Shown here in pieces: positions 24,407 to 30,875 of a DNA stretch of 64,000 nucleotides; within the stretch, counting starts at the first letter, position 1; every line of letters starts with the position of its first letter. This DNA is from Archaeoglobus sp. JdFR-27 (GTDB taxonomy: Archaea; Halobacteriota; Archaeoglobi; Archaeoglobales; Archaeoglobaceae). Below the pieces are notes generated by a model that saw nothing but the letters and a program-made list of their open reading frames with translations, made no database searches and was not told where the DNA came from. The position numbers and the translations under genes were made by a program. Location: positions 1 through 64,000 of the forward strand of contig MTMO01000012.1 of NCBI GenBank assembly GCA_002011235.1. The letters run 5' to 3'.

Positions 24407-24760
24407 CTACCTTACAAGATGAAAAATCTTGTTAATTATCGCAAAAGTTACGAAAACGTCATTTCCGACGGCATCGCAAATCACTATCTTTTTCCGCTTT
24501 GAAGTCTCAGCCGTTTCTATAAGCTCAGGAATGTTTTCAGACACATGATAGCCTGGAGATATGAACAAAGGAACGATGAAAATAGTCTCACTTTTCATAG
24601 AATCAATGACCTCGGCAAGGGTTGGACTTCCCACTTCAACAAAGGCGATTTCAACTTCCTCAAAAACTCCGAGCTTTTCAATTCTTTTTTTATGTAGTGT
24701 AAGCACATTTTTGAAGTCCGAAGACTTGCTTCCGTGACCAGCGATTACCAATCCCTTCAC
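24407..24760 (-). CDS. cbiX: Short sirohydrochlorin cobaltochelatase
   Basis: 117-aa single-domain CbiX(S), inserting Co2+ (or another metal) into sirohydrochlorin, the branch to cobalamin; related short chelatases also act in siroheme or F430 routes. Metal-binding histidines are in GHGSKS and SPGYHVSENIPE. The short form is the archaeal homodimeric type. The corrinoid protein CdhD/E and the siroheme reductase in this window both need products of this branch point. Confidence 0.85.
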   Translation of the reverse strand: MKGLVIAGHGSKSSDFKNVLTLHKKRIEKLGVFEEVEIAFVEVGSPTLAEVIDSMKSETIFIVPLFISPGYHVSENIPELIETAETSKRKKIVICDAVGNDVFVTFAIINKIFHLVR

Positions 24761-24859: not shown

Positions 24860-25377
24860 TTTCCAAATCTTATAGCTTGTCTTGAATCGGTAAGAGGTTC
24901 TTATGTGCGAATTTCAGAAGGACTTCGCTAACACGTGTTCGTCAAGTTCCATTTCTGCCCGTTCTGAGGTCCAAAAATTCCATTCGTCTCTCCACATAAT
25001 GTAGTGGGCGTTGGGAAAAGCTGGTTGCCCTCGGCGTCTGTGTCCCCGCCGATATGATCTGGATGTCCATGTGTAAGGATAACTGTATCAATGTCTCCAG
25101 GTGCAATCCCTTCAGCCTGCATGTTCTGAAGGAGTCTTCCTGTATTTGGACCTAAAGCATCCGCACCCGTATCCACAAGCACCCGATGCTCACCCGTATT
25201 GACCGCCAAACAAATATACAGATTTATCCACTCGACCCACTGTTCTGGCTGTAAATTGTGTCCTCGAAGCACCTGATCAAGACGTTCTTTTGATGCGTTG
25301 GCGAAAAGAAAGGTAGCAGGGGGTGGAAAAGTAGGTGGTGAGTATGCGTGTGCCGTCGCTGACGGCAATGCATTCAA
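24860..25377 (-). pseudogene. Broken metallo-beta-lactamase fold hydrolase, bacterial-like
   Basis: The first part (25377 to about 24980) reads as an MBL domain with LVDTGA, the THGHPDHIGG zinc motif and a Pro/Ala-rich N-terminus. The frame then slips. Downstream in another frame is DEWNFWTSERAEMELDEHVL, and in a third KFAHKNLLPIQDKL, which are the expected next blocks of the family, before a stop. The C-terminal half with the remaining metal ligands is missing. Base and codon use (GC-rich, CCC/GCC codons) differ from neighbours, suggesting transfer and decay. Confidence 0.75.
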
Positions 25378-25504
25378 AATTACCTATATCTTAAAGGAAA
25401 AATCTTTCATTATCCATAACACATAATTGTCTTCCTTTCTTCCCCCCATCTACCATATTCTCTTTTTCTATCAGTCTATCAGTATCTACGAAATTGCTTA
25501 TTTT

Positions 25505-25550
25505 CACTTAAAAGCTTTTCTAAAGATCTTTTGCACAGTTCTTGTAGTCA
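25505..25550 (-). pseudogene. Tyrosine recombinase fragment (second copy)
   Basis: The minus strand encodes DMTTRTVQKIFRKAFK before a stop. It nearly repeats TTRTVQKIFEYV of the larger integrase relic at 27170-27665, with about 22 of 26 bases identical around AAAGATCTT. Only this short conserved piece is recognisable; the rest of 25378-25626 has no gene. It lies on the other side of the glycoside hydrolase gene from the larger relic. Confidence 0.5.
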
Positions 25551-25626
25551 TATCTTAATTTTCCTGTATATCGCACTCATTTCTCCTTCGTACAAAGTTA
25601 GATCTGACCACAATTCAATAGTTCTA

Positions 25627-27114
25627 TCACTTCTCCTCCACAAAAACTGGGATATTCCCTATTTCAAATTCGAGTTGGGATGGATAGCTTTCCAAGACAT
25701 TAGCCTTTATTTCTCTAAAGGCGGTGTCATAATCTGTTACATCCTTTCCTGTCTTGTATTTTGGCACAGCTTCCACGATTTTGACATTTTTTGTATCTCT
25801 ATCTAAAGTTATCCTTACCTTTCTTGTTCCTTGGTTATCATTCCAGACAACCCAGACGGATTTCCCAGTATCCTTTTTTACAAACTTGTAGATGTAGATG
25901 CCATCTTTTTCTTGAATGATCTGGATATTATCCCAATCAGAACCCTCTAAAACCTCAACCATCTTTTTATAAGTATAGTAGGACAATTTGGGAGCTAATC
26001 GGAAAGTAAGCAATCCTGAATACTTAGCAACTGTTCCTTCAGGAACATTCGGGCTCATGTCGGTTAAGGTTAACCAGACGATTTTCTTTACACCATTAGC
26101 TATATGAAAAACATAATGTTTGATGATCCACGCTGCCTGTTTTTCCTCAGTTTCACCAAGCTTACCGTTTATACCGCTCTCAGTAATCCAGATAGGTTTG
26201 CTCCCTATAAGTTGTTTGAATTTCAGCAGATTGTCTCTTAAAACAAAAGTATCATAGCTTTGGGGATAGACATGGTATGAAAAAATATCATAATAGCTTT
26301 CAACACCTAACTCATTTAACCTCTGCAGGTAATTAATCGAGGTGTTACCAATGCCCTGTCCTATGCCCACAAGATTAATTATCACTTTCGCTTCTTTATC
26401 CGCCTTCTTTACCGCCTGATAAGTTAGTTTCAAGACTTCGAAGTATTCATCTGGGCTAGAGAAATTTGCATTGCCGCGAGAAGCTCTTACCTTGTTATGC
26501 AAATCAGGTTCATTTTCCAACTGCCAGTATTTAATCGGATATTTTAATCCGGGCATGTCGTCTTTACCGTCGCCATCATATCTCTCTACCAACTGTTCTA
26601 TGTATGAAAAATACGCCTCCTTACTCTCAGGAATATAAGTTTCGGCAGTTAACCATTCGGTATCCGTGGGTAAGGGACTTATAGCAGCTATCAGTGAGAT
26701 GTTGTTTTCCTGAGCAAGTTTAACGAGGGCATCTTGCTTGGTGAAATCCAAATTTCTGCCATCGTGATCAGGGTCAACACCGCTCCAACCAAAGGTGCCA
26801 AAGATATTAGGATGGAGCCTCGCCCACTTTATTCCAAGTTCCTTGAAGTAGGGAATTTTTTGAGATTCTATTTCCCTCGTCATTTGTTCGGCAGTAGTTA
26901 TTCCAACCACTTTTGCCACCTTAGAAGGGATGCCGAAATCATTAGTGGCAAAGGGAGAATTTTGATTTGTCATTAAAACTGGGTAGCCAGCTTTGGCGCG
27001 TTCTTCAAAAGTGTTTGTTTCTTGAACTAGCCTTTCTGGTTTTAAAAGAAAATACCCGCCAATGCCCAAGATAAGGATTACAACCACAATAATTAGTTTA
27101 TTCATGGTTTTCAT
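25627..27114 (-). CDS. Membrane-anchored (beta/alpha)8 glycoside hydrolase
   Basis: 495 aa. Residues 5-24 form an uncleaved signal anchor, then an extracellular clan-A-type TIM barrel. The likely acid/base is the Glu in YWQLENEPD and the nucleophile the Glu in PIWITESGING. A C-terminal beta domain (about 395-495) follows. It looks most like GH39/GH5-type proteins; substrate is unknown. The Lys-rich anchor followed by a polar linker is bacterial in style, and the gene lies between recombinase fragments, so acquisition from bacteria is inferred. No SD is obvious. Confidence 0.7.
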   Translation of the reverse strand: MKTMNKLIIVVVILILGIGGYFLLKPERLVQETNTFEERAKAGYPVLMTNQNSPFATNDFGIPSKVAKVVGITTAEQMTREIESQKIPYFKELGIKWARLHPNIFGTFGWSGVDPDHDGRNLDFTKQDALVKLAQENNISLIAAISPLPTDTEWLTAETYIPESKEAYFSYIEQLVERYDGDGKDDMPGLKYPIKYWQLENEPDLHNKVRASRGNANFSSPDEYFEVLKLTYQAVKKADKEAKVIINLVGIGQGIGNTSINYLQRLNELGVESYYDIFSYHVYPQSYDTFVLRDNLLKFKQLIGSKPIWITESGINGKLGETEEKQAAWIIKHYVFHIANGVKKIVWLTLTDMSPNVPEGTVAKYSGLLTFRLAPKLSYYTYKKMVEVLEGSDWDNIQIIQEKDGIYIYKFVKKDTGKSVWVVWNDNQGTRKVRITLDRDTKNVKIVEAVPKYKTGKDVTDYDTAFREIKANVLESYPSQLEFEIGNIPVFVEEK

Positions 27115-27169
27115 ATTCTCTGTTAGTATGATCTCTATTGTATATACTCTTCTTTTAACAGGATGTACG

Positions 27170-27665
27170 ACTTACTAATTTTTCTTACTGCTTCCCATCA
27201 AATCCAACATGCTTCTTATCTTTCTTAAATTTTTAACTGCAACAGGAGTATAGATCTCACCGTTTTTGAGCCTTTATTTCCCTAAACTCTAATGTATCAC
27301 AAATCGACTCCGCTTTTAAGTAAATGAGTTGCAAAGCTTGCCTTAAGGAGTGAAAAGTAAATCTTTCTTTATTCCAGCTTTTATACATACTCAAAGATCT
27401 TCTGCACAGTTCTCGTTGTTAATGTCTGTTCCTCTTCTGCCCCGAACAACCGTTTCTCTAACCTATAATTCTCCATGCATTTCTTCAGCGTATTCAGTAC
27501 AATCTCGAAAAGTATTGTAGCGATCCTTTTCGCCCTTTCCACCTCTTATTCTTATCAAGTTCTTATCAGGTTCTCTATCAGGTTTCTTTCTGTTATCAAG
27601 TATCAATTATTCTCAACTCTAAGCTCTACACTCTCGTAAATCCCAGCCAGTAGTTTCGAGAAAAT
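27170..27665 (-). pseudogene. Decayed XerC/D-like tyrosine recombinase
   Basis: Blocks of a catalytic domain appear in order on the minus strand, in different frames. They are a YWLGFTRV-stop-SLEL segment (the ATGLRVSEL region), IRGGKGEKDRY, TILFEIVLNTLKKC with RLEKRLFG, TTRTVQKIFEY, FTFHSLR with SFATHLLKSGVDL (His-x-x-Arg box) and a C-terminal IYTPVAVKNLRKIRSMLDLM. At least three frameshifts and several stops are needed. The catalytic Tyr is probably that of IYTPV. It occupies most of the 615-base gap before the next gene and marks an old integration event. Confidence 0.75.
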
Positions 27666-27723: not shown

Positions 27724-27736
27724 TTAACGGTGTTAA
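27724..27736. promoter_or_regulatory. TTAACGGTGTTAA palindrome over the start of the sulfur-carrier operon
   Basis: Perfect TTAAC-N3-GTTAA dyad whose last base is the first base of the ATG at 27736. An AT-rich TATA-like stretch (ATTATTAATAC) lies about 22-30 bases earlier, so the palindrome covers the predicted initiation site of a leaderless mRNA, the expected place for a repressor. Near-identical sites occur at 36390, 43731 and 44621. Confidence 0.65.
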
Positions 27737-28923
27737 TGTTGCGATGTATGATATGCAAAAAAGAAATAGAGGATTTGCCAAGCTATATCTGCCCGAGATG
27801 CTTTGGACCGCTAGAAGTTGTCTACGACTGGGAACAGATTAAAGAGAGAGTTAGTAGAGAGAAAATAGAGAGAGGAGTGGAAAGTATGTGGAGATACAAA
27901 GATTTCCTTCCAGTAAACAGAGAACCGGTTGATTTGGGAGCTGGTTTCACAAGGTTCATTCACGCTAAAAACCTTGGAGAGATTCTGGGATTGAAGAATC
28001 TTTACCTTCTTGATGACTCAACCAATCCGACCTATTCCTTTAAGGACAGAGTGGTAAGCGTGGCTGTAACAAAAGCTTTAGAGTTCAAGATGAGAGCTTT
28101 GGGATGCGCCTCAACAGGAAATCTCGCAGGAAGCCTCGCAGCCCACGCTGCTAAGGTAAAGCTACCCACATACATATTCGTCCCGGCTGGGATAGAAAAA
28201 ACAAAGATTGTTCAGGCTGCCGTTCATGGAGCGAATATAATTGAGGTCGAAGGAAGTTATGATGATGCGAACAGAATCGCGATGGAAATGGCTGAAAACA
28301 ACCCGGATTGGGGTTTTGTTAATATTAATCTCCGCCCGTATTATGTAGAGGGGAGTAAAACCCTTGCCTATGAAGCTGTCGAAAGACTGGATTGGAGGTC
28401 GCCAGATCAGGTTATACTACCAATGGCATCAGGGGCTTTGTTGACTTCTGTTTACAAGGGCTTTCAGGACTTTATAAAGGTTGGATTAACCGATACAATT
28501 CCGATTTTTAACGGTGCACAGCCAGAGGGTTTTCCGATCGTAAGAGCTGTTAGGGAGAAAGCCGAAATCAAACCATTAAAGGAGTCTCAAACCATCGTCC
28601 ACAGCCTTGCTATAGGGAATCCCGCCAACGGTTTTACTGCAAAAGATATAATAGAGGAGACCAGAGGATACGCTGAAGATCCATCAGACAGGGAAGTCGT
28701 CGACTCTGTGCTTCTCCTTGCAAAGACTGAAGGTATTTTCACAGAGCTTGCAGGAGGAACGGTTATTGCAGCTCTCAAAAGATTGGTTGAAGCTGGCAGA
28801 ATTGATAGGAGTGAGGTTATAGTCGCGTATCTGACAGGCAACGGGCTTAAAACAGCAGATGTCTTTCTAAATGAATTTTCTGTTAGAAAAGTTTCGAAAT
28901 ATGAGGAGGTGATAGCGTGGTGA
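27736..28923 (+). CDS. Threonine-synthase-like PLP enzyme of a sulfur-carrier operon
   Basis: About 395 aa. An N-terminal zinc ribbon (RCMICKKE, CPRCFG) and fold-type II core with PLP lysine in NPTYSFKDRVV and CASTGNLAGSLA place it in the ThrC family. It diverges from the thrC at 95-1279 (for example TYSFKD for SGSFKD). It is followed with a 7-base overlap by a MoaD/ThiS-like protein, then E1-like and TusA genes. By analogy with CysM-CysO and with protein-thiocarboxylate-dependent homocysteine synthesis, I infer beta/gamma-replacement using thiocarboxylate sulfur to make cysteine or homocysteine; plain threonine synthase is the alternative. Start ATG 27736 (GTG 27730 possible). Confidence 0.8.
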   Translation: MLRCMICKKEIEDLPSYICPRCFGPLEVVYDWEQIKERVSREKIERGVESMWRYKDFLPVNREPVDLGAGFTRFIHAKNLGEILGLKNLYLLDDSTNPTYSFKDRVVSVAVTKALEFKMRALGCASTGNLAGSLAAHAAKVKLPTYIFVPAGIEKTKIVQAAVHGANIIEVEGSYDDANRIAMEMAENNPDWGFVNINLRPYYVEGSKTLAYEAVERLDWRSPDQVILPMASGALLTSVYKGFQDFIKVGLTDTIPIFNGAQPEGFPIVRAVREKAEIKPLKESQTIVHSLAIGNPANGFTAKDIIEETRGYAEDPSDREVVDSVLLLAKTEGIFTELAGGTVIAALKRLVEAGRIDRSEVIVAYLTGNGLKTADVFLNEFSVRKVSKYEEVIAW

Positions 28924-29186
28924 AGATAGTCTACCCTATAATTCTCGCCGCCGTTACAAGGAAAAAAGAGGAGGAGGTGGAGTTCAGCGGAGATGTTGAG
29001 GCGCTTATCAACTTTCTGTGCGAGAAGTACAAAGGATTGAAAAAGGTACTCTATAATAAAGAGGGATTTAACAAATTCATTAATATCTATGTAAACAACG
29101 AAGATATAAGAAATCTTAACGGTTTCGAGACTGAGGTAAAAGCAAACGATACGGTAAAGTTCATACCAGCCATTGCCGGAGGGTAA
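28917..29186 (+). CDS. MoaD/ThiS-family ubiquitin-like sulfur carrier
   Basis: 89-aa beta-grasp protein ending in AIAGG; the C-terminal Gly-Gly is the site of adenylation and thiocarboxylation. GTG start with a very strong GAGGAGGTGAT upstream, overlapping the PLP enzyme gene. The E1-like activator follows after one base. Context points to delivery of sulfur to the upstream PLP enzyme rather than to molybdopterin, although Mo/W cofactor use (Fwd) in the same cell keeps MoaD possible. Confidence 0.85.
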   Translation: MVKIVYPIILAAVTRKKEEEVEFSGDVEALINFLCEKYKGLKKVLYNKEGFNKFINIYVNNEDIRNLNGFETEVKANDTVKFIPAIAGG

Positions 29187-29187
29187 G

Positions 29188-29988
29188 ATGTCTGATATTA
29201 TATTAACCCAAGAACAAATAAAGAGATATGCCAGACAACTAATTATGCCCGAAATCGGAGGTAAAGGGCAGGTTAAGCTTTTAAAATCGAAGGCAATTGT
29301 AGTTGGTGCTGGAGGACTAGGAAGCGCCGCTATTCAGTATCTTGCTGGAGCTGGCGTGGGAAAGATAGGCATAGTCGATGGAGACAGCGTGGACATAACC
29401 AATCTTCAAAGACAAACAATCCATGCCGGAAATCTCGGGATGAACAAAGCGGAATCGGCAGCCAAGTTTGTAAAAACCCTCAATCCAGATGTTGAGGTTG
29501 AAGTTTATCCTGAAAATGTAAATGTAAACAACGTAAGAGATATCATAAGAGAATACGACGTCGTAGTTGACTGTACCGATAACTTTCCATCTAGATTTCT
29601 CCTCAACGATGCCTGCGTAATGGAAAAAATCCCCCTTGTCCACTCTGCTGTGCTTAGATTCATAGGAGAGATAATGACAATAGTCCCAGATTCTGCATGC
29701 TATAGATGTGTTTTCCCAGAAGCTCCACCGCCCGGTTCAGTCCCCTCATGCCAAGAAGCTGGTATAGCGGGGGTGGCAACAGGAATATTCGGAGTTATGC
29801 AGGCTACCGAGGCAATAAAACTGATCCTTGGTTTAGAGATTCTTGAGAACAAAATGCTCTATGCTGATCTTTTAACCATGGAATTTGATTTGATAGACAT
29901 TCGTAAAGACAGGAACTGCCCCGTTTGCAGTGGGAAAGTGAAAGATCTTCAGGAGGAGTCGTATGTTGAGACATGCAGAATTGAATGA
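29188..29988 (+). CDS. E1-like sulfur-carrier adenylyltransferase (ThiF/MoeB/HesA family)
   Basis: 266 aa from ATG 29188, with GGAGGG in the end of the preceding gene; TTG 29173 is unlikely. The Rossmann nucleotide-binding motif GAGGLGSAAIQYLAGAGVG, DGDSVDITNLQRQ, the adenylation Asp in VVDCTDNFPSR, and a zinc site formed by CYRC and CPVC are intact. It should adenylate the GG tail of the carrier encoded one base upstream. A downstream Cys in SCQEAGIAG may form the acyl-disulfide. Confidence 0.9.
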   Translation: MSDIILTQEQIKRYARQLIMPEIGGKGQVKLLKSKAIVVGAGGLGSAAIQYLAGAGVGKIGIVDGDSVDITNLQRQTIHAGNLGMNKAESAAKFVKTLNPDVEVEVYPENVNVNNVRDIIREYDVVVDCTDNFPSRFLLNDACVMEKIPLVHSAVLRFIGEIMTIVPDSACYRCVFPEAPPPGSVPSCQEAGIAGVATGIFGVMQATEAIKLILGLEILENKMLYADLLTMEFDLIDIRKDRNCPVCSGKVKDLQEESYVETCRIE

Positions 29989-30244
29989 CTCGAATGACCG
30001 AATTGAAGTTCTTGATTTGAGAGATGAGAACTGTCCTTTCACCTTTATAAAAACGAAGCTGAAACTTGAAGAAATGAAAAAAGGTGAGGAGTTGAAGGTT
30101 ATTTTTTCCGATGAAGTAACAGCTAGAGATGTTGCAAAAAGTCTCACCTCAGAAGGGCATGAGGTACTTGAAGTGCTTGAAATACATGGGGCACAATTGA
30201 AAGGTATTGATGGTTGGATGCTCAGGGTGAGATGTGGGCGTTGA
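29963..30244 (+). CDS. TusA/SirA-family sulfur-relay protein with altered CPxP motif
   Basis: 93 aa; the TusA core runs from residue 13. The sulfur-carrying cysteine is kept in ENCPFTFIKTKL, but the second proline of CPxP is threonine. GGAGGAG precedes the ATG, which lies inside the E1-like gene (26-base overlap). Predicted to pass persulfide sulfur into the carrier system. A second TusA with a canonical CPFP lies at 45965 beside the siroheme reductase. Confidence 0.82.
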   Translation: MLRHAELNDSNDRIEVLDLRDENCPFTFIKTKLKLEEMKKGEELKVIFSDEVTARDVAKSLTSEGHEVLEVLEIHGAQLKGIDGWMLRVRCGR

Positions 30245-30365: not shown

Positions 30366-30875
30366 TCAGATGTCCGGGATATAGACGGTTGCTGTTTTGG
30401 GAGTCTTTCCCTTTTTGATCTGATGATAGTAATCGTAAGTCATAACTTCTTTTTCTTCAAGAATTTCAGCATCAACTACCTCTCCGACGAAAAGTGTGTG
30501 GGTTCCAACATCCATGCTTTTTACGACTCCCGCCTCTAGATAAGCAACGGAATTGTCCAGTACGATTGGCATTCCTGTTTTCCCGATCTTATAACTTATG
30601 CCTTCGAATTTATCGAACTCTCTCCCGCTTCTGAACCCAAATCTCCCTATGAACTGCATTGGAGTGTCCCTTGCAAGAACCGAGACCGAGAATGCATTGC
30701 TATCCTTTACACATTCATTCGTAAAGTTTTCTTTGTTCAGACAAACCGCTATCAAATTTGGACTTGAAGAAACCTGAAAGACGGTATTGGCTATCTGACC
30801 GTTGAACTTTCCATCTTTCATAGACGAAACGATATAAAGGCCGTAGCTGATCTTATACAACGCTTCAGGATTCAT
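30366..30875 (-). CDS. Flavin reductase-like FMN-binding protein
   Basis: 169-aa flavin-reductase-domain protein (flavoredoxin / high-molecular-weight rubredoxin N-terminal type), with KISYGLYIVSS, GQIANTVFQVSS and VGEVVDAEIL as family blocks. Likely binds FMN and reduces it or passes electrons to rubredoxin/rubrerythrin. It lies downstream of rubrerythrin on the same strand across a 76-base repeat-filled spacer, so the two may be co-transcribed for oxygen or peroxide defence. Confidence 0.82.
   Translation of the reverse strand: MNPEALYKISYGLYIVSSMKDGKFNGQIANTVFQVSSSPNLIAVCLNKENFTNECVKDSNAFSVSVLARDTPMQFIGRFGFRSGREFDKFEGISYKIGKTGMPIVLDNSVAYLEAGVVKSMDVGTHTLFVGEVVDAEILEEKEVMTYDYYHQIKKGKTPKTATVYIPDI

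Follow-up and report, generated by a model that had tools for sequence, protein, structure and literature searches.

The locus lies in the 64,000-nt window analysed here, contig C19 of the 2.36-Mb genome of Archaeoglobus sp. JdFR-27 (G000), in which 5,605 bp separate cbiX from a flavin reductase gene. Read along the minus strand from right to left, the order is a decayed integrase copy (copy B), an intact glycoside hydrolase gene, a scrap of another integrase copy (copy A), an MBL-fold hydrolase pseudogene, and cbiX; a sulfur-carrier operon occupies most of the remaining interval as far as the flavin reductase gene (Table 1). ARAGORN identified no tRNA gene in the window, and no direct repeats bounding the island were found there.

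Table 1. Coordinates of features at the locus and the matches that define them
Feature	Coordinates	Strand	Evidence or remark
cbiX, left border of the site	24407..24760	-	Pfam CbiX E 4.9e-17; amino-acid identity 91% to G004, 72% to G003
MBL-fold hydrolase pseudogene	24880..25436 (left end approximate)	-	Lactamase_B; possible captured gene of platform A
attI-like remnant A (weak)	25475..25497	-	core-scan rank 36 of 25,584 placements; attI-only profile E 26
Integrase copy A, scrap	25517..25585	-	nhmmer 25554-25517, E 0.023
Glycoside hydrolase, intact, anchored, clan-A-like	25627..27114	-	possible captured gene of platform B
attI-like remnant B (weak)	27120..27170	-	alignment to L100; attI-only profile 27170-27148, E 12; core-scan rank 217 of 25,584
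Integrase copy B, decayed C-terminal part	27163..27593	-	nhmmer E 4e-65; blastx E 1.9e-17 across frames
Sulfur-carrier operon: threonine-synthase-like, MoaD/SAMP-like, ThiF/UbaA-like, TusA-like	27730..30244	+	
Flavin reductase, right border of the site	30366..30875	-	amino-acid identity 88.6% to G004, 80.1% to G003

Foreign genes and recombinase relics between cbiX and flavin reductase

The glycoside hydrolase, which the sequence-only reading had called signal-anchored, is intact: its frame encodes 495 amino acids and matches Pfam Glyco_hydro_cc with 28.6 bits (cut-off 21). Residues N201-E202-P203 and E312 are invariant across nine aligned sequences and, judged from this alignment, are likely catalytic. 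The structural model, which is only fair (pLDDT 67), has a hydrophobic N-terminal helix that would serve as a signal or anchor, and it resembles clan-A enzymes, PslG being the top match; by sequence, the protein has no PDB match at E<=0.01. Because the likely catalytic residues are kept and the model is like clan-A enzymes, the hydrolase may remain active at the cell surface, with polysaccharide as its substrate. The MBL pseudogene matches Lactamase_B (E 1.1e-11), changes reading frame, as judged by eye, and is shorter than its homologues, which occupy open frames of 315 and 318 amino acids. The gene had been described as broken and of bacterial type; it is indeed broken, but of its type we can document only that it is rare, with matches at E<=1e-10 in 3 of 246 genomes of the phylum, G000 among them. 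It is also present in G004, to which 25133-25436 is 85% identical over 306 nt.

Recombinase relics lie on both sides of the hydrolase, as had been proposed. Copy B matches Pfam PF00589 at 27288-27548 on the minus strand (E 1e-4, under the curated cut-off) and carries four stops. A DNA profile of integrase plus attI, built from eight relatives with the window sequence excluded, aligns with it at 27567-27163 on the minus strand (envelope 27593-27143). The recombinase pseudogene originally placed at 27170-27665 is therefore confirmed for about 27163-27593, and its outer part, 27594-27665, has no detectable homology. Searched through approximately 90 kb, the same profile scores copy B highest, followed by copy A and then by the predicted position in G004 (E 0.19). 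With a protein profile, copy B came up as four fragments, copy A weakly (E 0.024) and the G004 scrap not at all. The alignment of the G004 scrap with copy B beats 500 of 500 shuffles; copy A at 25585-25568 matches G004 at 16 of 18 nt, an agreement that is often equalled in shuffles (24 of 500).

The two copies share a 27-nt repeat, 25522-25548 and 27393-27419, both encoding TTRTVQKIF as noted before, and agreeing at 24 of 27 nt; among 314 other segments sampled from the window, none agrees at more than 20 of 27. All three differences fall at third codon positions and are silent, indicating that both copies were probably once genes and that the repeat is not an attachment duplication. We accordingly rejected this repeat as an att direct repeat, as it is coding sequence of two recombinase copies. 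The left-hand stretch had been taken for a flanking piece of one element; it instead derives from a separate integrase copy, which may be that still visible in G004.

Comparison with relatives reveals how the interval was filled. In G003, of the same genus, the cbiX–flavin reductase gap is 106 bp and the site is empty. In G004 the gap is 923 bp and contains a weak recombinase scrap together with the same MBL pseudogene; that genome is 80% complete, and a single contig spans the site. The sulfur-carrier operon is absent from the site in both genomes, which places the integration site between cbiX and flavin reductase and not, as first thought, between cbiX and the operon. The empty and the intermediate site bear out the proposal of layered insertions of genes foreign to the site, and an empty site was indeed recovered from a relative, although no att repeats bound the island. 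The simplest history runs from an empty site, through entry of an integrase and the MBL gene before the G000–G004 split, to addition of a second integrase with the hydrolase, and of the operon, in the G000 lineage; secondary loss in G004 is a conceivable alternative. Elsewhere, the four operon genes are grouped in all five other genomes fetched (L241-L245), which were drawn from 11 others with a close threonine-synthase-like homologue, and the 7–10 kb stretches around the operon in those five hold no cbiX or flavin reductase homologues. The four genes may be transferred together and serve a sulfur-carrier-dependent pathway, for an amino acid or a persulfide.

A recombinase family close to IntI and XerA

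Relatives of the recombinase are encoded at 141 archaeal and bacterial loci, the best 80 of which were kept (51–100% identity in the best segment). Three of four relatives tested exceed the cut-off of 220 bits for NF040815 ('site-specific tyrosine recombinase/integron integrase'), with L113 at 238, L114 at 241 and L127 at 254 bits, while the truncated L095 scores 201. The integron integrase model TIGR02249 matches in two stretches, under its cut-off. The best PDB match by sequence is IntI4 (2a3v, 148.1 bits), followed closely by PaXerA (144.5 bits). The AlphaFold model of L125 (pLDDT 81.6, pTM 0.52) likewise retrieves 2a3v first (Foldseek E-value 2.1e-17) and XerA 5hxy second (4.3e-17), with low TM-scores that are higher for XerA (0.40/0.53) than for 2a3v (0.37/0.43). 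Tyrosine recombinases share the catalytic set R-K-HxxR-H-Y. Across 28 of the 80 relatives, chosen by length for alignment (A2), K243, H308, R311, H334 and Y343 never vary and R218 hardly does; in the window copies, decay has gone too far for the set to be judged.

The IntI-specific region comprises 31 residues in L113 versus 73 in IntI4, approximately 42 being missing, and the motif spacing is 58–62 amino acids in all 34 relatives in which the motifs make it measurable (46 of 80 are not). The IntI-specific additional domain is thus missing from this family, and assignment to canonical IntI was rejected on that ground. The domain is reportedly necessary for IntI activity, as the title of a 2001 paper by Messier and Roy has it. 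The relatives have in common an extra N-terminal region, visible in the consensus of the 28 aligned sequences and found by a simple motif in 19 of 80, which is weakly HARP-like in six of eight scanned, all under the cut-off. The N-termini of L114, L109 and L143 conserve YNP..KIK.I.G.RWHPEEKYW, with a weak sub-cut-off match to Pfam HARP. Compared with archaeal XerA (NF040815, 4a8e, 5hxy), the family falls in the same NCBIfam family and has a similar catalytic core and inter-motif length; in Archaeoglobaceae, however, copies of the subtype are patchy and broken, and many intact relatives carry additional sequence at the N-terminus and are followed by an attI-like stretch.

attI- and attC-like sites

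A non-coding stretch of approximately 100 bp past the integrase stop is conserved between many archaeal and bacterial locus pairs and frequently ends in forms like AACGAGTTAGGC or ACTAAGTTAGGC; in several relatives an attI is clear. The names of the attI and attC boxes are those in general use for integrons. Of the 32 rows measured among the 80 loci, 14 have an exact GTTRRRY core no more than 320 nt away, against about 8–9 expected by arithmetic, so the core alone proves little. Paired attC-like sites, RYYYAAC...GTTRRRY, number 10 in the 217 kb downstream of the integrases, against 0.6 in shuffles, at six of the 80 loci (L114, L116, L166, L168, L172 and L180), whereas upstream there is one in 372 kb (L127), against 0.8 in shuffles. 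An earlier, stricter scan found sites only downstream, four on one strand and eight on the other; shuffles yielded none. Locus L116, on a 1.9-Mb contig labelled as a Methanoperedenaceae archaeon, has the order integrase-attI-ORF-attC; its integrase frame is short (230 amino acids), and its attC folds far better than shuffles (z -4.5 and -4.8 for the two strands). Gene orientation was discarded as a cassette test, as it does not discriminate: 37 of 50 downstream genes and 54 of 74 upstream genes lie on the integrase strand. Three clostridial genomes have a stretch of approximately 150 bp at 0.8–2 kb behind the integrase (L143:8649-8799, L150:7367-7516, L173:7458-7607), 80–84% identical to that of L143, which is perhaps a further cassette site. 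Behind a Treponema integrase, L176:9415-9626 is a run of 21-nt tandem repeats.

No attC site was detected in the window, in G004, at any of the nine Archaeoglobaceae loci scanned, or at the MBL and hydrolase homologue loci (L239, L240, L220, L221); attC-bounded gene cassettes, too, are lacking at the window. For attI, a motif had been noticed by eye ahead of testing, and three tests agree in direction, none being strong alone. Specifically, when the alignments to ten reference sites are summed, p is 0.01 for the right gap, 0.03 for the left gap and 0.037 for the gap in G004, compared with 0.44–0.85 for four other gaps; this test is weak, since the opposite strands do almost as well (0.03–0.04). 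Taken singly, the best alignments fall short of significance (0.17, 0.28 and 0.11 for right, left and G004). A core scan scores the attI core of G004 at 96, above the window maximum of 88, with the left and right gaps placed as in Table 1. An attI-only profile gives E 4 for G004, with weaker values for the right and left gaps (Table 1) and two better window matches elsewhere. Two of its seven minus-strand matches in 64 kb fall within the predicted gaps, together about 200 bp, for which arithmetic gives a chance of about 2e-4, a figure to be read with the motif having been seen beforehand. The window flank has no blastn match to the other loci. About 24 nt past the hydrolase stop, 25585-25603 on the minus strand (ATCTAAC-TTTGT-ACGAAGG) resembles half of an inverted attI/attC; it ranks 39 of 25,584 on the opposite strand and is too weak to count.

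The weakness of these window matches would be expected if the hydrolase gene, the MBL gene and the operon had arrived independently at a permissive intergenic site, with the integrase relics as unrelated leftovers and the attI-like remnants as products of chance. The operon, on the other strand and without sign of integrase involvement, fits that account as well. We nevertheless regard it as quite improbable, since an integrase remnant immediately precedes each of the two foreign genes on the minus strand, and since in G004 the top-scoring attI core of the contig is situated between the scrap and the MBL pseudogene.

Proposed integron-like platforms in Archaeoglobaceae

We lean towards reading the locus as two dead integron-like platforms, each with integrase, attI and captured gene, stacked at one site, which specifies more closely the 'integrated element' of the sequence-only reading. 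While functional, the locus probably behaved like a stack of integrons with one gene each. In a living platform, the integrase would recombine an attI site immediately downstream of its gene (core GTTRRRY) with attC on a circular cassette, which would bring the foreign gene next to the integrase gene, downstream of it and on the same strand. Platform A (integrase-attI-MBL) would have entered between cbiX and flavin reductase before the G000–G004 split, and platform B (integrase-attI-glycoside hydrolase) and, separately, the sulfur-carrier operon would have been added in the G000 lineage. Both integrases, the attI sites and the MBL gene would later have decayed, leaving the hydrolase gene and the operon intact. 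So read, the locus gives a series: empty in G003, one platform in G004, and two platforms with the operon in G000. G000 holds four other PF00589 matches; the relic matches no ORF at these four loci, and the genome's other NF040815 matches, among those listed, score 71–94 bits against the cut-off of 220, so the platforms in G000 are presumed dead. We do not file the locus as an integron, because the IntI-specific domain is missing and no attC was found here.

The examined Archaeoglobaceae copies of this type, among the matches listed, are all broken or fragmentary. Apart from G000 and G004, attI was recognised in 9 of 13: by motif in seven (L094, L098, L099, L232, L233, L234 and L235), and by a profile not containing them in L222 (E 8.5e-18) and L226 (E 7e-21); it was not recognised in L223, L225, L227 and L228. 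The genes behind the copies include a nucleotidyltransferase-HepT pair, a restriction-type helicase, an AAA/SMC-type ATPase, a PAPS-reductase-like protein and a ClpP-like protease, as well as a HEPN protein, under the cut-off, behind fragment L225. ORFs were searched on the integrase strand only, so finding an ORF in that orientation behind attI has no value as a test; the family search, which left out L235, used the second or third ORF for L094, L098 and L234, returned no family for L226 and L233, and gave matches under the Pfam cut-off for L094 and L225.

The relics in the window might also derive from ordinary integrative elements, plasmid or viral, with a XerA- or pNOB8-type integrase and attP beside it, the hydrolase and MBL genes being passengers and the rest deleted. 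IntI4 is hardly closer than the XerA structures 5hxy and 4a8e, the scanned Archaeoglobaceae copies have no attC nearby, and decay of integrase genes is common. We consider this origin unlikely, since the window has no tRNA gene, a scan of viral contigs gave just two relatives, at 28% identity, attC-like sites lie behind some relatives, and the proteins searched behind the Archaeoglobaceae copies do not point to a single type of plasmid or virus. SSV-type integration at a tRNA was rejected, as the window has none; the tRNA target and bounding att direct repeats of an SSV- or pNOB8-type element are both absent, the longest repeat being coding.

The platform reading places the locus beside known systems. 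Ghaly et al. 2022 (PMC9668308) describe archaeal integrons in which attI lies directly downstream of intI, is semi-conserved across archaeal phyla and has the canonical insertion point; six archaeal IntIs are said there to carry the IntI-specific domain, and the string 'Archaeoglob' is absent from the main text. The attI-like stretch of the present family would have a similar position behind the integrase, whereas the IntI-specific domain is missing. Treponema-type chromosomal integrons are described as having intI transcribed toward attI, in the cassette direction (PMC3607928); the spirochaete loci L166 and L168 are similar in having several attC-like sites behind a homologous integrase, whereas the window platforms are dead and neither attC nor an array was found. 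IntegronFinder 2.0, according to its description (PMC9024848), tells IntI by the extra domain and detected none of these systems among the archaeal genomes in its database. We found no integrons in Archaeoglobi, and no domain-less integron class, in the open-licence papers searched.

More tentatively, and as somewhat less likely than not, we consider a class of integrons across archaea and bacteria that is built on integrases without the IntI-specific domain and with an extra, possibly HARP-like N-terminal domain, that domain-based tools would miss, and whose dead platforms litter Archaeoglobaceae with defence and other foreign genes behind them. Among the genes behind dead integrase copies at L099:1946-2580, L222:1-1302, L225:249-1325 and L232:2-1303, the HepT pair, the helicase, the HEPN-like protein and the PAPS-reductase-like protein give several possible defence genes. 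Should integrases lacking the domain likewise act on attI and attC, gene capture linking archaea and bacteria would be undercounted, and the role of the extra domain in folded-site recombination would become testable.
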